A stretch of 64,000 bases of DNA, taken from contig CAMZOI010000002.1 in the NCBI GenBank assembly GCA_947331495.1, forward strand, positions 186,001-250,000, in the 5' to 3' direction. Under the pieces are notes generated by a model. The model was not told the origin of the DNA. It saw only the letters and a program-made list of their open reading frames with translations, and did not search any database. Below are positions 20,081-29,021 of this stretch, one piece after another. A program made the position numbers and the translations under genes. Origin of the DNA: Erythrobacteraceae bacterium Alg239-R51 (GTDB lineage: Bacteria; Pseudomonadota; Alphaproteobacteria; Sphingomonadales; Sphingomonadaceae). Position 1 is the stretch's first letter. Each line of letters opens with the position of its first letter.

Positions 20081-20872
20081 ATGCGCCAGAAGCTTCCAGC
20101 CACCATCGCCCTCGTCCTGCTGTCGGGCATCGTGGCCGCCTGTTCGGCACGTGCGGACAATTCGTCGACGAGCGAGAACGGACGCGTTCAGGCAGCCGAC
20201 GGGCAGGCAGAAGATGTGGAGCGACCGGATTTCAGCGTCGTGAAATCGGCACCCGGCCCCTCGTCATTCGCGGGCGATATCGAACTGCGGCGTTACGAAC
20301 CTGTCATTGTCGCCGAAACAACTGTTCAGGCGCCGAACCGGTCGGTGGCGTCCAGTCGCGGGTTCGAACCGCTTGCGGCGTTCATTTTTGGCAAGAACCG
20401 ACCCAGCGCGGAAATCGCCATGACCGCGCCGGTCACGACTTCGGACGGCCGATCCGAAGAAATCGCCATGACTGCACCGGTAACGACCGCACCCGCCCAA
20501 TCCGAAGAGATCGCGATGACCGCCCCGGTCACGACGAGCCCGGCCGGCGCCGATAGTACCGGCGAAGGCGGCGGAACCGAAAGGACCTACACCGTGCGCT
20601 TCACCATGCCTTCCAAATATACGATGGAAACGCTGCCGCGCCCGATCGATCCGGCTGTCAACATAGTTCCGCTGCCCGCACGCCAGATCGTCGCGCTTCG
20701 ATTTGTCGGACGGCCCCCGCCCGAAAGGATCGCTACGGCCGAACGCGCAATATCGTCATTCGTGCAGGAAAACGATCTGTCCCCGACCGGTCCGTTCGCG
20801 ACAGCCGGATATGACGGGCCAAGCGTGCCGCGATCGCGCCAACGCTGGGAAGTGCATCTTCCGGTCGAGTAG
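20081..20872 (+). CDS. SOUL heme-binding family lipoprotein with a triplicated motif
   Basis: A 263-residue exported lipoprotein (lipobox VAAC, Cys about 21) with a SOUL/HBP domain. The domain starts at about residue 65 (GDIELRRYEPVIVAET), with GFEPLAAFIFGKNRP, the conserved IAMTAPV element, then RFTMPSKYTMETLPRP and the C-terminal RQRWEVHLP. The IAMTAPVTT element, normally one short loop, occurs three times (20411-20539), lengthening the domain by about 33 residues. SOUL proteins bind heme or other tetrapyrroles in some members; binding here is not shown. AAGGAAA precedes the ATG. It is divergent from the HhH lipoprotein gene. Confidence 0.85.
   Translation: MRQKLPATIALVLLSGIVAACSARADNSSTSENGRVQAADGQAEDVERPDFSVVKSAPGPSSFAGDIELRRYEPVIVAETTVQAPNRSVASSRGFEPLAAFIFGKNRPSAEIAMTAPVTTSDGRSEEIAMTAPVTTAPAQSEEIAMTAPVTTSPAGADSTGEGGGTERTYTVRFTMPSKYTMETLPRPIDPAVNIVPLPARQIVALRFVGRPPPERIATAERAISSFVQENDLSPTGPFATAGYDGPSVPRSRQRWEVHLPVE
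20411..20539 (+). repeat. In-frame triplication of the EIAMTAPVTT coding unit
   Basis: Three 30-base copies at 20411, 20459 and 20510 with spacers of 18 and 21 bases. The encoded decapeptide EIAMTAPVTT is identical in all three, while synonymous codons differ, so the duplication is old or selected. Confidence 0.9.
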
Positions 20873-22207: not shown

Positions 22208-22281
22208 GGCCCGATGGCGGAGTGGTTACGCAGAGGACTGCAAATCCTTGCACGCCGGTTCGATTCCGGCTCGGGCCTCCA
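22208..22281 (+). tRNA. tRNA-Cys (GCA)
   Basis: Complete cloverleaf of 74 bases including encoded CCA. The acceptor stem pairs GGCCCGA with TCGGGCC, the anticodon loop is CTGCAAA (anticodon GCA), and the T loop is GGTTCGATTCC. Confidence 0.95.
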
Positions 22282-22313
22282 CTCTTCCAGCGCGAATGCG
22301 CGCCCGAAGACGT

Positions 22314-22389
22314 GCCGCTTTAGCTCAGTTGGTAGAGCACATCATTCGTAATGATGGGGTCAGGTGTTCGAGTCACCTAAGCGGCACCA
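22314..22389 (+). tRNA. tRNA-Thr (CGT)
   Basis: Cloverleaf of 76 bases with encoded CCA. The acceptor stem pairs GCCGCTT with AAGCGGC, the D arm is AGCTCAGTTGGTAGAGC, the anticodon loop is TTCGTAA (anticodon CGT), and the T loop is TGTTCGAGTCA. It lies 32 bases after tRNA-Cys, probably in one transcript. The amyloid operon begins 48 bases beyond its 3-prime end. Confidence 0.95.
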
Positions 22390-22437: not shown

Positions 22438-23874
22438 CTAGAATTGGTACGGCACGCGAACCGAGAAGGAAAAGTCGGGCGATTCGTCGGTCAGGCCGGC
22501 GGCGGTGGACAGCACCAGCGACATCCTGTCGGTCAGACCCACCGAGGCGCCGAGGGAAAGCCGGGCGTCATGCGTTCCTGAGCCCGGTATCTTCTCGCCA
22601 TTCGACGAGGTGGCGAAGCGTTGCTTGTCGAGGAACGAGAAGTTCATCGACACACCCTGGTTGATCGACATGTTCAGTCCGGTGAAGAATTCGAAACCAT
22701 GACCGGGTTCGATATAGCCGAACTGGTCGAAGCTTCGGCCGAAGGTGTAATTGTACGCCCCGCCAGCGAACAGCACGACCGGGTCGATCGGCCAGACGAA
22801 GGTCACCCCCGGAGATACGGTATAGAAACCGGACCCGGTGGGAGCCTCGACCAGAACGAGTTCCGGGCTGTCTTCGGAAGGCGGTACACGGTCAATCTCG
22901 AAAGCGCTCTTGCCGCTAGGAAATTCCGCCTGCACCCGCAGAATGGTCGCTGGGCGCCCACCCTTGGCGGTGAGCGCCTGATAGGCGAGCGTCAGTCCTA
23001 TATCGCCGAGACCGTGGCCCGACGTCCTTCGCTCCAGCGCATCGCCGGTCCCGATCCCGGTGGTTTCGGTATCGTTACGGTAGACGAAGGGAACGCGCAG
23101 ATCGACCTGACTCCGGCGTCCGGTACCATAGCGCGCCGTAATCGCACCGGTCAGGATATCCCGGTTGATATCGTCCACCCGGATGGTGCCGATCAGGATC
23201 GCGTTGAAGATCGAGAAACCCGACAGGTTTACCCGGTCGCTGGAGATGGAGGTGTAGTCGAGGCTGGGCTCGATCTGCAGCTTGCCGCTCGGAAGCAGAA
23301 CGCCTCCCTGATCCAGAAGAAGCTGATCGACTGCCTTGTCCGATTGAGGTCGTTCGGCAGCAGCTACGGTCTGGTTCGCCGTGCTGTCCGCAGGAACGGT
23401 GTTCTGGACAGGCTCATCCTGTACCGAAGGATCCTGTGCAGTAGCGGCGCCACCGGATGCCTGCGCCGTATAGAACCTGGCGCCCGAGGGTTGCGATAGC
23501 CCGTCGCGATCGGCCAATGCGAGGTTCAGGCGCTGGACTTCGACGTTAGCGGCATGGATCTGCTGGTCGCGCGAACTAATCTCTGAGGATTGCCAGGTGA
23601 CCGTCTGCTCCAGCTCGGAAATTCTGCGCTCCTGATCGTCGAGCCGTCGCTCGAGCCGGGCTAGAATATCGTCCTCGCGCCTCTCCGCCTTCTTGCCGGA
23701 TCGAGTGCCGTCACGCGACTGTTCGCCAATGGACGAATGGAATTGCGGACCCTCCTGGGCCAGTACGCTGCCTGGAGACAGGAAGATGCTGATGGCGATT
23801 GCACTGCAACATGCCTTCCCCGCTTTGCCGAAATTTGAAGTCTTTCTCCGATAACCCTTTGTTGAACAATGCAT
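22438..23874 (-). CDS. FapF-like outer-membrane pore with N-terminal coiled coil
   Basis: A 478-residue outer-membrane protein. It has a signal peptide (about 1-40, cut after VLAQ), a strongly heptad-like charged region (about 60-115, including LERRLDDQERRISELEQTV), a Gln/Ala/Pro-rich linker, then a beta barrel from about 195 to the end. The barrel begins GGVLLPSGKLQIEPSLDYT, contains ITARYGTGRRSQVDLRVPF, and ends with the aromatic signal RVPYQF. Coiled coil plus barrel is the architecture of FapF, the trimeric channel that secretes amyloid subunits in Pseudomonas. Pfam might label it phenol-degradation MetA-type. It is the last gene of the operon; GGAGGGG precedes ATG 23874. Confidence 0.78.
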   Translation of the reverse strand: MHCSTKGYRRKTSNFGKAGKACCSAIAISIFLSPGSVLAQEGPQFHSSIGEQSRDGTRSGKKAERREDDILARLERRLDDQERRISELEQTVTWQSSEISSRDQQIHAANVEVQRLNLALADRDGLSQPSGARFYTAQASGGAATAQDPSVQDEPVQNTVPADSTANQTVAAAERPQSDKAVDQLLLDQGGVLLPSGKLQIEPSLDYTSISSDRVNLSGFSIFNAILIGTIRVDDINRDILTGAITARYGTGRRSQVDLRVPFVYRNDTETTGIGTGDALERRTSGHGLGDIGLTLAYQALTAKGGRPATILRVQAEFPSGKSAFEIDRVPPSEDSPELVLVEAPTGSGFYTVSPGVTFVWPIDPVVLFAGGAYNYTFGRSFDQFGYIEPGHGFEFFTGLNMSINQGVSMNFSFLDKQRFATSSNGEKIPGSGTHDARLSLGASVGLTDRMSLVLSTAAGLTDESPDFSFSVRVPYQF

Positions 23875-23951
23875 GTGCCCCTCCCCGCTTTCGTATGCTG
23901 CTTTTCGCCAGACTTTTTTCGCTTTCGCGCTGTTCCAATCGGCCTTCGCGC

Positions 23952-24428
23952 TCAGAATCCGAATATCGCTCCGTTGGCAATGTTGCTGGTATCGGCCACG
24001 CCACCTTCGAGGAAATAGACGTTCAGAACCAGATTGTTGTTCACGATATTGTTGTTTCCGACAACGGACGCAAACTGGATGAACCCGCCAGTGTTGGGCA
24101 GGCTCGCAAGCCCGAGGTTCATGCTGACGAGGTCGGCGGATTGCGAGGCAAGGGTTACCCCTTCCGGAAGTCCGCTGCCTACTTGGTTGATGTCGCCATA
24201 GCCGAAGAGGGTGAAATAAACGCCGCCAAAGCCACCGCGCTCTATGCCCAGCTCCTCTTCGCTCAGCACCCGGCCATCGGTAAGGTTTGTCTCACCGAAC
24301 ACGAGCTGCGAAAGGTTACCGGTCACGTTTGAATTGGGCGGATATTCGTTGGCCTGGGCCGGTGAGCCGATAGCGCCAGCGACAAACGCTGCGCACAGGC
24401 TGGTTTTGCAAATATGCTTCCTAATCAT
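23952..24428 (-). CDS. Small exported protein with a double-glycine-like motif
   Basis: A 158-residue protein with a signal peptide (about 1-27, cut near AQA-NE). After about 28 mature residues comes LSEEELGIERGG (55-66), resembling the LSxxELxxIxGG leader recognised by C39 peptidases, followed by a Gly- and aromatic-rich FGGVYFTLFGYGDI segment and an Asn-rich NNNIVNNNLVLNVYFLEGG strand near the C-terminus. I do not recognise a named family. Position between the C39 peptidase and the pore genes suggests it is a minor subunit, chaperone (FapA-like role) or peptidase substrate. AAGGAG lies nine bases before the ATG. Confidence 0.7.
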   Translation of the reverse strand: MIRKHICKTSLCAAFVAGAIGSPAQANEYPPNSNVTGNLSQLVFGETNLTDGRVLSEEELGIERGGFGGVYFTLFGYGDINQVGSGLPEGVTLASQSADLVSMNLGLASLPNTGGFIQFASVVGNNNIVNNNLVLNVYFLEGGVADTSNIANGAIFGF

Positions 24429-24481
24429 GACGTTTGCTCCTTGTCTGAATTTGCGAACCGAAATGAAAGTCGGTCTTCATT

Positions 24482-25183
24482 TCAATATTCCCCCGGAAAG
24501 GTGATTTCCGCTGTTCCCAGGGCAAAGGCGATCGATCGCAAGTCGCCGGGTCGAGCCAGGATCGTCGGATCTTCCATGAACTGCGGATCAGGAGGGGTGT
24601 CAGCCTTCGCAACGGCAAGAATGATGCCGTCCCATTGACTGGCGAACTCGTCCAGCGTCGGGCGACTGTTTCCAAAGGCGGGATCCGCAATCAGAACTCT
24701 GCCCTCATGGACGCGCTTGATGACCACGAAGTGGTTGTAGCCCCGGACATTGATCAGCGCGATCACCGGAACCTGAAGGTTTTCGAGCTTTGCCACCGAA
24801 TCGAGTTTGAAGCCGCCAGCAGCGAAGCCGCGGGTTTCGATATATCGCTTGAGTTCGAGCAGCGAGAAGCCTTCCTCGGCAATCTTCTGCCTGTTGTCCT
24901 CGGGGGTTATGTCGAAGATGTTGTCGATGACCGAGCCTTCGGTCGCGTCCAGCCCATATCCGTGCGCAAGCAAGGTCGAGACCGCGGCTGCGCCACAACT
25001 GAGATCGCGCGACTGGCGTGTCATGTTGCGAAAACGCATGTCCGCCAGCGAAGTCACCTTTACCTGCAACGAACCCGCGCCCGGCACATAGACCGGCTCG
25101 GCTACGGACGGAGTGGGAACAGCTGCTGCGAGGAAAACAAGGGCCGCAGCCAGACCGGGACCAAGGATGAAGGGCTTGCTCAT
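24482..25183 (-). CDS. Periplasmic C39-family cysteine peptidase (FapD-like)
   Basis: A 233-residue exported peptidase: signal peptide (about 1-28), then a C39 domain with oxyanion Gln57 in TRQSRDLSCG, catalytic Cys63, His151 in RGYNHFVVIKR and Asp167 in IADPAFGN. It lacks ABC transporter domains, so it is a free-standing enzyme like FapD of the Fap amyloid system, which processes secreted components. The family usually cuts after Gly-Gly, and the next gene encodes a suitable site. Its ATG is two bases past the stop of the upstream repeat-protein gene, with AGGAAG as ribosome binding site, so the two are translated together. Confidence 0.85.
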   Translation of the reverse strand: MSKPFILGPGLAAALVFLAAAVPTPSVAEPVYVPGAGSLQVKVTSLADMRFRNMTRQSRDLSCGAAAVSTLLAHGYGLDATEGSVIDNIFDITPEDNRQKIAEEGFSLLELKRYIETRGFAAGGFKLDSVAKLENLQVPVIALINVRGYNHFVVIKRVHEGRVLIADPAFGNSRPTLDEFASQWDGIILAVAKADTPPDPQFMEDPTILARPGDLRSIAFALGTAEITFPGEY

Positions 25184-25185
25184 GC

Positions 25186-26226
25186 TCAGCTTCCTGGCCC
25201 GGCGCCGATCGATACAGAGATCGTGTTCGCCGTCTGGTTGCCGTAGCCCACGACTTGCGAAACCTGGCCGACCCCGATGAACCCTTCGAAGGAGTTCTGC
25301 ATCTCGGTTTGCCCTTCGAGCGCTGCGTTCTCGACGTCTTCGGCATTTAATACGGGGGACCGAACGTCGCCGAGCCCTGTGTCCGATATTGTCGTGGCGT
25401 CCGCATACGAGCCGAAGGCCTTAGCAATGAGGTTGGTCTGTCGGTTGTCCGCGCCGGTCGCCTGATTGATCTGAGCAAGGCCGACTGCCCCGTTCAGACT
25501 ATCGCGGAGGGACGCCGTGGAAACCAAAGGCGGCGGCGCACCCTCGTCGGTCGATGTGTCGTCGGGCCTCGCCTGGAGCGATGCGGCGTTCGCAAGCGCG
25601 ATGCCGTCGCTGGCAGAAGCAAGGGCGACGATGTTCGATTGTTGACCGCCTATACCCGCGAGCTGGTTCGCCTGGATGATACCTACCGCGCCGTTGCCGA
25701 ACGAGGCTATTCCCACGTCCGGCGCGTTATTCGCAGACATGCGATAGGCAATCGAGGATGTGGAACTGACTGCCGAAGCGTATGCCACGCTCGCAGCGTC
25801 GTCAGACACTGCCAGGGCAACCAGATTGCCTTGCGAGGATCCTGATGCGGTCGACTGGTTGATGCCCACGAGGCCGCTCGCTCCGTTGGCGACTTCCGTC
25901 ATCACGGCAGCCGAACTCGGTACGGCGAGAGTGGGTGAAAATGTACGTTGGGAATTGCCGGCATCGGCAATCGCGGCGCCTGCTTGCTCGACAGCGGAGA
26001 CGACCAGCACGTTGTCCTGGTTCGTGGCGTCGGCAGCTGACTGGTTCAGGTGGAAAATGCCCGTCCCCTCGTTACCGACCTGTTCCAGTCCCGTCTGCTC
26101 GGGTTCCGGTTCGGGCTCAGGTTCGCTGGTCTGGGCTGCGAGCCCTGGGCCAGTACCCATCACGAGGAGGCACAGGAAACCCGATGCGATGCGGGTGAAA
26201 AAGCTGGTGGTTTGATGAGTTTGCAT
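25186..26226 (-). CDS. Secreted five-repeat amyloid-like protein (FapE/FapC-like)
   Basis: A 346-residue exported protein. After a signal peptide (about 1-31) and an EPEPEPEPEQ spacer come five divergent repeats of the form G-x-x-G-hydrophobic-x-x-x-NQ-x8-(N/Q)Q-x-N-hydrophobic. They include GTGIFHLNQSAADATNQDN, SGLVGINQSTASGSSQGN, VGIIQANQLAGIGGQQSN, VGLAQINQATGADNRQTN and IGVGQVSQVVGYGNQTAN, separated by Ala/Ser-rich linkers. This resembles FapC/FapE repeats. It may be a minor fibre subunit or an extracellular cap. The start is ATG 26226, because the frame back to 26304 would put a basic stretch before the signal. Confidence 0.75.
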   Translation of the reverse strand: MQTHQTTSFFTRIASGFLCLLVMGTGPGLAAQTSEPEPEPEPEQTGLEQVGNEGTGIFHLNQSAADATNQDNVLVVSAVEQAGAAIADAGNSQRTFSPTLAVPSSAAVMTEVANGASGLVGINQSTASGSSQGNLVALAVSDDAASVAYASAVSSTSSIAYRMSANNAPDVGIASFGNGAVGIIQANQLAGIGGQQSNIVALASASDGIALANAASLQARPDDTSTDEGAPPPLVSTASLRDSLNGAVGLAQINQATGADNRQTNLIAKAFGSYADATTISDTGLGDVRSPVLNAEDVENAALEGQTEMQNSFEGFIGVGQVSQVVGYGNQTANTISVSIGAGPGS

Positions 26227-26315
26227 TGTTCGGTCGCTTGTTCGGATCAGTAGTGAGGCTGGCGAGAGAGACGGGGACTTCTGTTCTCTCACCAGCCTCA
26301 CCATCTGACGCGTGC

Positions 26316-27206
26316 TTACTGGCCCAGTCCGACTGAACTGGTCAGCGCCGCGACGGAGATAACGGTTGCCTGATTGTTGAAGGCACCCGTCGACTGGTTC
26401 ACGGCGACGATACCGGTGTTCCCGTTCATCGAGTTCGTGACGGTCGCAGTCTTCAGCGTGTTCACGTCATTCAGGACGTTGCCGCTGTTTTCCTGGCCAA
26501 GGCCCGCATCCGAGAGCGCCACCAGAGCATTGTCGCCTACTGCCAGCGACAGCAGATTGTGCTGGTTGTTGGCATTGCCGACGTTCTGGTTGCCCATCAC
26601 GACACCGGCATTGCCATTGTAGGAATTGGTGATTTCGGCCGTGAGATCGAAGTCGAAGTCACCATCCAGATCGACAACGAATTCGCCATCCACCAGATCG
26701 ACCAGACCGGCAAGGTTGTCGAAATCTTCCTCGTGGGTGGATTCGGAATCACTGATGCGTTGATCGGCATAGGCTTCGGACATCACCACCTGGCTATCAT
26801 CTGAATCCACGGCGGTGAACACCGCTGCCGCAGCCATTACGTTACCCTGGTTGGAAACGTTGCCGGCGTCCTGGTTGAACTGGACGATACCGGTGTTTCT
26901 GTTGACGGAATCCGTCGTGCTGGCGGTCTTGTCGATGCCTTGGTCGGTAACCGAATCGTTGATCGCTCCGACGGACACGTCGTCGATCGTCGCATTGATG
27001 GCGGCATTGGATTGGGCCGAGCCATCGAGGATGACGTCCATTTCAACGCCGACGACGATGCTCTTGTCCTTGGTGGTGTCGACATCGATCGTGATATCCT
27101 TGTCGATATCGAGCGTGCCTGTGACCTGGATATCGGCCATTGCGGGGGTCGCTAGCCCTGCTGCCATTATCAGCGCAAGGGACGAACTTTTCAGAAAATG
27201 CGTCAT
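26316..27206 (-). CDS. Secreted three-repeat amyloid-type subunit (FapC/FapB-like)
   Basis: A 296-residue exported protein: signal peptide (about 1-24), an N-terminal Val/Asp-rich region, then three repeats of about 32 residues separated by long linkers. Repeat cores are SVNRNTGIVQFNQDAGNVSNQ, described by parts as NRNTGIVQFNQ then AGNVSNQ; NGNAGVVMGNQ then VGNANNQ; NGNTGIVAVNQ then TGAFNNQ. Repeat-linker-repeat-linker-repeat with Asn/Gln ladder positions is the FapC architecture. The first linker is very acidic (DGEFVVDLDGDFDFDL). Spacing to the next gene is 89 bases and AAGGA precedes the ATG. It is likely a fibre or nucleator protein. Confidence 0.8.
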   Translation of the reverse strand: MTHFLKSSSLALIMAAGLATPAMADIQVTGTLDIDKDITIDVDTTKDKSIVVGVEMDVILDGSAQSNAAINATIDDVSVGAINDSVTDQGIDKTASTTDSVNRNTGIVQFNQDAGNVSNQGNVMAAAAVFTAVDSDDSQVVMSEAYADQRISDSESTHEEDFDNLAGLVDLVDGEFVVDLDGDFDFDLTAEITNSYNGNAGVVMGNQNVGNANNQHNLLSLAVGDNALVALSDAGLGQENSGNVLNDVNTLKTATVTNSMNGNTGIVAVNQSTGAFNNQATVISVAALTSSVGLGQ

Positions 27207-27244
27207 TTCAGAAAATCCTTCTGTTCAAGTTGTTGGGTGAGCGA

Positions 27245-28129
27245 TCAGAACGTCGGCAAGTTGGATCCGACGGCTGCGATCGAAACGATGTTCGCCTGGT
27301 TCGACATATTGCCGACCGACTGGTTCACACCGACGATGCCGACATTGCCATTCAGCGAATTGCTGACGCTCGCGACCTTGAGGACGCCAAAGCCGTCATT
27401 CTCGCTGCTCGATTCACGAACTTCGTTGTTGGCATTGACCTGCCCCAAATCGGCTTCGGAAATCGCCACGCCATTGTCATCGAGCGCGAAGGCGAGCGAG
27501 AGAACATTAACCTGGTTGGCCATGTTGCCTGTCGCCTGGTTTCCGTAGACCAAACCGGTATTCCTGTTGAACGAGCCCGTGATATCCGCGCTGCGGAAAA
27601 GGATGTTCACGGTGTCGACCTCGTTTCCGCCGCCGCTGAAGGAATCGTCGTCACCGGCCAGCGCATCTGGTGTGCCATTGCGTTGGTCGGCTGCCGCCAG
27701 GGATTCAGCGAACCCGCTATTGCCCGGATCCACGCCTGGCGGTACTTCACCCGGGAAATCCTGGGCCGCATCCACGGCCACGCTGACCAGCGTACCCTGG
27801 TTGTTCAGATTGCCCGACGATTGGTTGATCGACGCGATGCCTTCGTTGCCATTGACCGAATTCGTGATGAAATCTTCTTTTTCGGCGCAATTGGTGCAGG
27901 CTTCGTTGTCGAAATTGCTCTGATTGGCGATCGCGATCGATTCCGCGAATTTCTCCGCTAGCAGAGCGACTGCTACGTCGAGATCGACATCGGTGTCGAT
28001 AGTGATCGTTTCGACAACATTGATCGTTTTTTCGAGATCGATTTCGCCGGTCACGGTAACGTCGGCAAGTGCCGGGCCCGAGAGGCAGAGGGCAACTGTC
28101 GCGGCCCCCGCAAATAGTCCATACTTCAT
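27245..28129 (-). CDS. Secreted three-repeat amyloid-type subunit with CxxC
   Basis: A 294-residue paralogue of the downstream gene and first of the operon. Signal peptide (about 1-22), then the same three-repeat plan: NGNEGIASINQSSGNLNNQ, NRNTGLVYGNQATGNMANQ and NGNVGIVGVNQSVGNMSNQ, with a Gly/Asp/Pro-rich first linker and an acidic second linker. A CTNC pair (Cys78, Cys81) sits just before repeat 1. Pseudomonas Fap fibre proteins also carry a CxxC, but near the C-terminus. GGAG lies eight bases before the ATG. Two fibre-type genes in tandem recall the fapB-fapC pair (nucleator and main subunit). Confidence 0.8.
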   Translation of the reverse strand: MKYGLFAGAATVALCLSGPALADVTVTGEIDLEKTINVVETITIDTDVDLDVAVALLAEKFAESIAIANQSNFDNEACTNCAEKEDFITNSVNGNEGIASINQSSGNLNNQGTLVSVAVDAAQDFPGEVPPGVDPGNSGFAESLAAADQRNGTPDALAGDDDSFSGGGNEVDTVNILFRSADITGSFNRNTGLVYGNQATGNMANQVNVLSLAFALDDNGVAISEADLGQVNANNEVRESSSENDGFGVLKVASVSNSLNGNVGIVGVNQSVGNMSNQANIVSIAAVGSNLPTF

Positions 28130-28283: not shown

Positions 28284-29021
28284 TTACGTGTTTCCGTATT
28301 TTAGCCTTAGAGACTTCAATTGATTGATTATAATTTTACCTGATTTTATGGAGAGGAAGCCAGAAGCTTTAAATTCTTTAATTATCTGGTTTAGGTACAC
28401 CGGGCTCATGCCCAAGGCGGACGCGAGTTCCACCTGGGTGAGATCGATAGGAGTATGCGTGCCGCCTTCCGAGTCGCTGCTCGGCGTTTCATAGGCGGAC
28501 GCTAGGTTTGCCAGGAGATAGGCAACTCTTTCGGCACCATGCCGACACAACAGGTTCGACAGATAATCGTTCGCGCGCCTGAGCGTTTTTCCAAGATTAA
28601 TCTCGATTGCCAAGCCGAGCCTGTTGCCGCTCATGAGCCGCATCATCGCGCGACGCGAAACAGTGTAGAATTCCGACTGCCCGAGGCATTCAATCGAATA
28701 GATTGCTTTCCCTTGGGAATCGATCGGGGGAACCATCAGTCCCGGAGGCGTGAGGAAGAAAAGATAATGTCTCGTGGCGTGGTCGCAGTGGACGGCAACA
28801 CCGGCGATGCCGGAAGTCATGGCGTAAACGTCAGACGCCACCTCTCCTTCGCGACAAAGAAAGTCTCCCTTCTTTTTGGAGACATGAACCCCTTCGGCCA
28901 GGATCCGATCGTGGAGTAGATCGTCGGCCGGTCTTTCCGAATTATCAATTGCCTGGATGTCGTTCGGCAGGACTGTCCTCGAGGCCACCGATAAGCCTCC
29001 TTGTACCCCCTGGTGCGTCAT
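28284..29021 (-). CDS. Crp/Fnr-family regulator upstream of the amyloid operon
   Basis: A 245-residue regulator. The central beta roll (about 40-150, with KKGDFLCREGEVASDVYAM) lacks the cyclic-AMP phosphate-binding Arg/Ser pattern that I would expect for Crp, and there is no N-terminal cysteine set for an Fe-S cluster, so its signal is unknown. The C-terminal winged helix (about 175-235) contains LTQVELASALGMSPVYLNQI, the DNA-recognition helix. It is on the same strand as, and 154 bases upstream of, the amyloid operon, so it is the best candidate controller. Its 3-prime end has lower GC than neighbouring genes, hinting at transfer of the block. Confidence 0.82.
   Translation of the reverse strand: MTHQGVQGGLSVASRTVLPNDIQAIDNSERPADDLLHDRILAEGVHVSKKKGDFLCREGEVASDVYAMTSGIAGVAVHCDHATRHYLFFLTPPGLMVPPIDSQGKAIYSIECLGQSEFYTVSRRAMMRLMSGNRLGLAIEINLGKTLRRANDYLSNLLCRHGAERVAYLLANLASAYETPSSDSEGGTHTPIDLTQVELASALGMSPVYLNQIIKEFKASGFLSIKSGKIIINQLKSLRLKYGNT

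Follow-up and report, generated by a model that had tools for sequence, protein, structure and literature searches.

A divergent Fap-type operon in Erythrobacteraceae bacterium Alg239-R51 encodes a double-glycine leader protein beside its FapD-like peptidase

Gene content of the operon

We analyzed a 64,000-nucleotide window of Erythrobacteraceae bacterium Alg239-R51 (assembly GCA_947331495.1, contig CAMZOI010000002.1, positions 186,001 to 250,000), which contains a six-gene operon related to the Pseudomonas Fap functional-amyloid system and encodes, next to a FapD-like C39 peptidase, a small protein with a double-glycine leader. All six open reading frames (ORFs) lie on the minus strand in the order C1-C2-B-D-E-F (two FapC-like genes followed by FapB-, FapD-, FapE- and FapF-like genes), are separated in that order by 38, 11, 2, 53 and 77 bases, and encode proteins that each carry a Sec-type signal peptide, read by eye, at the N-terminus. 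A first-pass annotation had already recognized these same-strand genes, and they lie where it placed them:

27245 to 28129, minus strand: rep1, FapC-like subunit of 294 amino acids (aa) with three Fap-type repeats
26316 to 27206, minus strand: rep2, FapC-like subunit of 296 aa with three repeats
25186 to 26304, minus strand: rep3, FapB-like subunit of 372 aa as called, with five repeats
24482 to 25183, minus strand: FapD-like periplasmic C39 peptidase, 233 aa
23952 to 24428, minus strand: small exported FapE-like protein, 158 aa, with a conserved Asn-rich C-terminal block
22438 to 23874, minus strand: FapF-like outer-membrane protein, 478 aa

Rep1 and rep2 matched the NCBIfam model for FapC (expect values, E, of 4e-10 and 6e-16, respectively), and rep3 matched that for FapB (1e-13; FapC, 3e-13). 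All three subunits scored below the curated cut-offs (FapC, 59 bits against 195; FapB, 51 against 190), as did the FapB and FapC proteins of two canonical-type loci from Alphaproteobacteria, L058 and L119. Rep2 matched a Pseudomonas protein in locus L146 at 2.5e-11 that is FapC by position and length, and rep3 matched one in L133 at 1.4e-11 that is FapB on the same grounds. A homologue of rep1 (7.5e-136) is encoded in L188, a related locus in another genus, and a CTNC motif in the N-terminal portion of rep1 is present in that homologue too. The signal peptide of rep3 is better placed with the alternative start Met27 (26226).

Three repeats in each of two secreted proteins and five in a third had been counted in the first-pass annotation, a count borne out by a repeat matrix built from the six rep1 and rep2 repeats only, aligned on their Asn-Gln anchor, so that rep3 was held out. 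Five places in rep3 scored 13.0-28.9 bits, with the best of 1000 shuffles reaching 10.4 and a sixth place scoring -8.8. No place in the peptidase, the barrel or the small protein scored above chance; a Fap-type repeat in the small protein itself was considered and not supported (best -0.4 bits, p 0.18 against shuffles). An earlier repeat profile, which included two out-of-register copies, gave weak matches only (best E 0.024). The repeats placed by the matrix are as follows:

27779 to 27868, minus strand: rep1 repeat 1
27494 to 27583, minus strand: rep1 repeat 2
27278 to 27367, minus strand: rep1 repeat 3
26829 to 26918, minus strand: rep2 repeat 1
26544 to 26633, minus strand: rep2 repeat 2
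26352 to 26441, minus strand: rep2 repeat 3
25999 to 26088, minus strand: rep3 repeat 1
25813 to 25902, minus strand: rep3 repeat 2
25621 to 25710, minus strand: rep3 repeat 3
25420 to 25509, minus strand: rep3 repeat 4
25213 to 25302, minus strand: rep3 repeat 5

The peptidase and the outer-membrane protein

The peptidase matched NCBIfam FapD at 3e-43 (148 bits, equivalog cut-off 330) and the outer-membrane protein matched FapF at 5e-48 (164 bits, equivalog cut-off 700); the search with FapC, FapD and FapF models that the first-pass annotation had proposed thus returned all three, each below its curated cut-off. Peptidase_C39 (2e-22) was the sole domain in a Pfam scan of the 233-aa peptidase, with no ABC or membrane domain found, and the Gln57, Cys63, His151 and Asp167 earlier described as intact are invariant across 19 aligned sequences (the window and 18 relatives).

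The outer-membrane protein consists of a coiled coil (residues 61-123), a linker, a helix (178-188) and a C-terminal beta-barrel, and it matched FapF in the PDB (5o67) at 2e-37. Both the coiled coil and the barrel, which had been predicted from the outset, are confident in the structure model; the helix has a predicted local distance difference test score (pLDDT) under 50 and is plug-like by position only. Were this protein an uptake channel of the COG4313 or Phenol_MetA_deg type, the repeat proteins would be unrelated adhesins. We consider this very improbable, and an uptake porin was rejected as an identity. The barrel falls with FapF and not with an unrelated porin family, the latter being the outcome that the first-pass annotation had named as fatal to a Fap assignment.

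A double-glycine leader in the small protein

The small protein was correctly described in the first-pass annotation as exported, but its leader was overlooked. No family in NCBIfam or Pfam matched it. By profile comparison, its C-terminal block resembles FapE (probability 76%, E 2.4e-5), and its signal peptide and leader resemble those of FapE-like proteins from non-canonical C39 and FapF-like loci (probability 94%). The signal peptide is followed by GRVLSEEELGIERGG-FGGVYF, and the homologue in L188 (7.5e-45) has the leader RALSDEELSTKRGG-YGG. The GRVLSEEELGIERGG-type form matches the general consensus of double-glycine leaders cleaved by C39 peptidases. The core of the leader is:

24231 to 24266, minus strand: double-glycine leader core LSEEELGIERGG, residues 55-66 of the small protein, with a predicted C39 cut after Gly66

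A leader matrix trained without the window and L188 gave 18.2 bits for the window and 26.4 bits for L188, and the best of 11,039 shuffled ORFs scored 14.9. Among the 11,039 real ORFs, with the training proteins counted in, 152 scored at least 16 bits and the window leader ranked 136th. With a matrix from non-canonical loci only, the window leader scored 17.9 bits, a value reached by 1 of 11,039 shuffled ORFs.

A C39 peptidase and a double-glycine leader are hallmarks of bacteriocin and peptide-pheromone maturation loci, and the window C39 domain distantly resembles that of peptidase-bearing exporters (5.6e-14 and weaker in NCBIfam). The leader peptide could on these grounds be an exported toxin or signal, and the repeat proteins bystanders. 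However, the peptidase stands alone, with 233 aa, a Sec-type signal and no ABC exporter domain, FapB/FapC-like genes are kept alongside it in a second genus, and the pore is FapF-like, so that a maturation locus of this kind seems very unlikely.

Leader genes beside FapD in other loci

The gene directly downstream of the peptidase was surveyed in 142 loci holding both peptidase and barrel, which were assigned by nearest tree row to 64 non-canonical, 52 beta/gamma canonical, 17 alpha canonical, 2 window-type and 7 short-barrel loci. The distribution counts are not a census, as L079-L158 are the best 80 of at least 596 matches; in addition, L119 and L194 appear to be the same genome from two collections. 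Because the matrix lacking the window and L188 was trained on FapD neighbors, the 118 adjacent ORFs that it recognizes are not independent, and the held-out or genome-wide tests are those with class-trained matrices and with a profile search of 200 genomes. Of the 45 rows from the class-trained matrix test, 43 went into leader profile A6, the two spurious training rows L062 and L148 being excluded.

The matrix trained on non-canonical loci recognized the FapD neighbor in 38 of the 52 beta/gamma canonical loci, in 16 of the 17 alpha canonical loci, in both window-type loci and in none of the 7 short-barrel loci, compared with 13 of 4,503 controls, which were ORFs at a distance of over 5 kb. When training used beta/gamma canonical loci, the neighbor was recognized in 16 of the 17 alpha canonical loci, in 34 of the 64 non-canonical loci, in one of the two window-type loci and in none of the 7 short-barrel loci (controls, 7 of 4,503). 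With a simple pattern, GK or GR was found at 46 of the 52 beta/gamma canonical loci and at every one of the 17 alpha canonical loci; the 64 non-canonical loci had GG in 47 cases and GK in one, both window-type loci had GG, and the 7 short-barrel loci had no match. Elsewhere in the same loci the pattern matched 23 of 10,261 other ORFs, some of which are second leader genes. The leader gene of the Pseudomonas locus L110 is named FapE by NCBIfam (354 bits, above cut-off).

A 44-position leader profile, built from 43 leader regions with the window and L188 left out, gave 15 matches when 200 genomes of the phylum were searched. These fall in 11 genomes, and all 15 lie 115-237 bases downstream of a FapD match on the same strand. 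A separate FapD search of these genomes gave 25 matches in 17 genomes at 1e-15; the 10 without a leader comprise eight weaker matches (seven at 1e-54 to 2e-45, one at 5e-16), the short G931 match and the window's own. Two of the 200 genomes, G262 and G361, also supplied training loci (only that of G262 being in A6), and others may be related to the genomes of training loci. Within the window's genus, the leader profile matched G053 only, twice, both times beside FapD.

At L096:6611-7171, upstream of the fapA position, a further protein is encoded that bears a GG or GR leader, with similar genes in other Paraburkholderia and Pandoraea loci, and a second small GG-leader gene lies directly upstream of the peptidase in several non-canonical loci (L200:7072-7512, L105:9480-9965 and L222:7018-7455 among them). 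The adjacent C39 and short-barrel pairs of L073-L078 and L220 form a deep outgroup with no downstream leader gene; one of these loci, L076, has a 12.5-bit leader-like ORF upstream of its peptidase.

Phylogenetic placement and distribution

Trees of FapD and FapF combined were built from 82 of 84 dereplicated rows (L070 and L112 left out) and from 53 chosen rows (L059 not among them). The window and L188 make up a long branch of their own in each tree, beside non-canonical loci and not within the canonical clade, with an SH-like approximate likelihood ratio test (SH-aLRT) support of 92 in the first tree and bootstrap/SH-aLRT values of 96/93 in the second. A tree forcing the pair to join the canonical clade had a log-likelihood 14.3 above that of the quick tree and was not rejected by the approximately unbiased test (p 0.83). 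The pair is best described as a third deep lineage that may attach to either the canonical or the non-canonical loci.

Counting the window's own genome in each case, barrel matches occurred in 14 of 118 closest-kin genomes and, across the family, in 58 of 397 genomes (33 of 96 genera), and the FapF profile matched in 27 of 385 genomes of the class, none above cut-off. The only close relative of the window barrel in the family is in G548, a member of another genus, at 64% identity. Its locus, L188, has the same seven-gene order (Crp-like, rep1, rep2, rep3, C39, small, barrel), and its rep3 again shows five repeats by eye; since this order is conserved in a second genus, the window block is real, far beyond chance. 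The first-pass annotation would have been contradicted by homologous operons lacking peptidase and pore, and L188, the one close homologue, keeps both. Strong FapD-type matches were present in 3 of 60 genomes of the window's genus (the window, G053 with two non-canonical loci, and G051 with a short-barrel locus), and three further genomes gave weak FapD-type matches only.

In Alphaproteobacteria, four loci (L058, L059, L060 and L119) carry canonical-type sets of FapB-, FapC-, FapD-, FapE- and FapF-like genes, and in the FapD and FapF tree of 82 rows all four fall with the Fap loci of Pseudomonas and Burkholderiales, as do L058, L060 and L119 in the tree of 53 rows. The range of described Fap loci given in the first-pass annotation (beta-, gamma- and deltaproteobacteria) agrees with the available part of a 2013 survey, which confines Fap to these classes (PMC3792158). 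A 2018 update added 25 genera and, in the part of its text available, names no Alphaproteobacteria, yet the added genera could include them (PMC6173800). The titles and abstract openings of the literature searched named neither Fap in Alphaproteobacteria nor a double-glycine leader in Fap proteins. Novelty to the class, as suggested initially, was ruled out by the canonical-type loci, some of them in the same family.

The substrate of FapD

In the portions available, the 2017 study of Pseudomonas Fap (PMC5557850) reports that the C38A substitution in FapD abolishes FapC secretion, describes the FapD target as unclear, Fap proteins having no canonical C39 site, and gives FapE as the only Fap protein without N-terminal mass spectrometry (MS) peptides (first ~70 residues), with the FapF linker a second candidate. 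Likewise, part of a 2025 review has FapE and FapF "thought" to be processed (PMC12822426). By the same portions of the 2017 paper, the published MS used in-gel trypsin (PMC5557850). As the cut that we predict in canonical FapE follows K or R, a tryptic peptide from that place would presumably not reveal it. The leader of Pseudomonas FapE ends near residue 45 (G44 in L110).

We consider it likely that the window holds a Fap-type operon of a separate lineage in which the FapD-like peptidase cuts the FapE-like protein after its leader, thereby licensing or starting secretion. The operon products would cross the inner membrane by Sec, and the FapF-like pore would then let the repeat proteins out of the cell across the outer membrane, with rep1 and rep2 the putative main fibre subunits and rep3 a candidate nucleating or minor subunit. 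In the periplasm, the C39 peptidase would cut the small protein after its double-glycine leader, and release of the mature part (FGGVYF...) would be the step that permits or initiates export.

A fibre operon of Fap type could also have a peptidase that acts elsewhere, on the FapF linker or as a chaperone only, with the leader serving as an uncut sorting signal. Cutting of the linker has already been proposed in the portions of both papers cited above (PMC5557850, PMC12822426), canonical FapE carries GK or GR rather than GG, and 15 of 135 barrels have a leader-like stretch of at least 10 bits ahead of the linker or within it, inside the first ~120 residues, some perhaps by chance. Yet the leader gene lies directly downstream of the peptidase gene across lineages, the window type has GG, and the window barrel has no leader-like stretch of at least 10 bits; we regard this alternative as unlikely. 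Given these 15 barrels, some lineages may have FapF as an additional substrate.

Several observations weigh against cleavage of the FapE-like protein in a Fap-type operon. The leader was first spotted by eye, and the leader patterns were written after the sequences were seen. The matrix from beta/gamma canonical FapE gives the window leader 10.6 bits (p 0.002), below the 99.9% threshold of 11.55, and at E 0.01 the 44-position profile does not recover the small protein of the window, a failure that divergence of the region following the leader probably explains. The simple pattern fails in 16 of the 64 non-canonical loci and in 6 of the 52 beta/gamma canonical ones, and 7 of 135 strong-barrel loci have no ORF of at least 10 bits. 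A cut in FapE alone would explain only part of the MS gap, as the leader ends near residue 45 and peptides are missing to ~70 in the available portion of PMC5557850; the lack of a leader-like stretch in the window barrel, counted above against linker cutting, belongs here as well. Finally, the structure model of rep2 (pLDDT 39.9) is too poor to reveal a repeat fold. A Foldseek search with it ranked FapC 9u4u first at E 2.5, a ranking of no evidential value since the model alignment contained FapC sequences; searched by itself, the rep2 sequence had no PDB match up to E 10, and a rep2-based profile matched PDB FapC entries but itself includes Pseudomonas FapC.

More tentatively, and with a little less than an even chance in our estimation, FapD would be a periplasmic double-glycine-leader peptidase with FapE and its relatives as dedicated substrates, and Fap one branch of a much wider C39 and FapF secretion family with several repeat-protein cargos. 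The canonical leader would have drifted from GG to GK or GR, which hid it, also from tryptic MS, and the window and L188 would be a third deep branch combining Fap-type subunits with an undrifted GG. A plain double-glycine leader in a divergent operon, together with a related leader family-wide, points to an exact residue for the suspected FapD cut and suggests that Fap may belong to a broad family of leader-gated outer-membrane export systems.

Flanking genes and genomic site

The operon is flanked by a regulator gene and a pair of tRNA genes:

28284 to 29021, minus strand: Crp/Fnr-family regulator gene, 154 bases upstream of rep1 (Pfam HTH_Crp_2 8e-12, cNMP_binding 7e-6)
22208 to 22389, plus strand: tRNA-Cys(gca) and tRNA-Thr(cgt), just past the operon 3' end

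The Crp/Fnr-family gene has a homologue (34% identity) at the same position in L188 and, judging from position, is probably the local regulator of the operon. Promoter and terminator scans of the locus gave signals no better than shuffles, and plasmid searches gave two short matches to the operon. The tRNA flank was matched in 60 of 60 genomes of the genus (partially in some, and in G054 by a tRNA-sized piece only), whereas the operon was not, so the site is variable and the operon has been gained or lost. Neighboring efflux genes, from 29530 onward in the window, are on the opposite side and inverted in G007 and G038, which indicates that the site with the tRNA pair has been rearranged within the genus.

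A protein of the SOUL heme-binding family with three near-copies of SEEIAMTAPVTT is encoded at 20081-20872 of the window. Beside the window-type operon of G548 (L188:6172-8411) lie genes for a LapG-like BTLCP cysteine protease and an HlyD-type fusion protein, which suggests a neighboring adhesin system.

Comparison with known systems

Curli was rejected as an identity, since none of the six operon proteins had a Pfam match to curlin repeats or CsgG at E 0.1. Peptidase-containing ABC exporters share the C39 domain and the double-glycine leader; in the window, by contrast, no ABC or membrane domain was found, Peptidase_C39 stands alone in a 233-aa protein, and the putative substrate carries its own Sec-type signal, and this identity was rejected too. 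The FilB/FilC putative pilus system of Acinetobacter also combines a C39 peptidase with a barrel but fits the window worse (FilB 2e-27 against FapD 3e-43; FilC 4e-15 against FapF 5e-48); a Fil identity was rejected, as these NCBIfam models were neither the best match nor over cut-off.

The non-canonical C39 and FapF-like loci (64 of 142, e.g. L122 and L067) share the FapD-like peptidase, the FapF-like barrel and, in most, a GG-leader neighbor with the window. In the few that were read by eye, very large QQNNG-repeat or Asn/Asp-rich secreted proteins replace FapB/FapC. Those of L064 and L047 had no NCBIfam match and those of L064 and L067 no Pfam match:

L067:12004-18825, repeat protein of a non-canonical locus, by eye
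L064:3299-5815, repeat protein of a non-canonical locus, by eye
L047:11029-12279, repeat protein of a non-canonical locus, by eye
L122:8759-9493, repeat protein of a non-canonical locus, by eye

The canonical-type alpha loci share class, and partly family, with the window, as well as FapB/C/D/E/F-like genes; what sets them apart from the window in the unconstrained trees is their grouping with the Fap of Pseudomonas and Burkholderiales. The FapA position is occupied by a gene in L119 and, by eye, in L058, that of L119 without an NCBIfam match. A peptidoglycan-binding, HdeA-like protein is encoded between the fapE- and fapF-like genes at L058:7410-8042 and, by eye, in L060 too.

With Pseudomonas Fap (fapABCDEF), the window shares FapB/FapC-type repeats, a periplasmic C39 FapD, a coiled-coil FapF pore and a leader-bearing gene downstream of fapD, which in Pseudomonas is FapE. 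The claim of a Fap functional-amyloid secretion operon is supported in part, as regards the FapB/FapC-, FapD-, FapE- and FapF-like genes, with corrections to its parts, its novelty and the leader. The phrase "exactly these parts" overstates the match: a scan of nine proteins of the window gave no NCBIfam match to FapA, FapC-like genes number two, and the FapB-like gene has five repeats. FapA is, by the available part of PMC6173800, frequently absent from fap loci. The canonical A-B-C-D-E-F order with FapA is replaced by C1-C2-B-D-E-F, and scores stay under the NCBIfam equivalog cut-offs; furthermore, the FapE-like protein has just 158 aa and a GG leader where Pseudomonas has GK or GR, FapD and FapF seem to be of a separate lineage, and a Crp-like gene lies upstream. 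The operon shares the Fap machinery yet is not classed as a canonical fapABCDEF locus, and its main novelty is the leader and the hint that it gives on FapD. As a variant in which FapA was not detected, it may serve for study and for engineered fibres.

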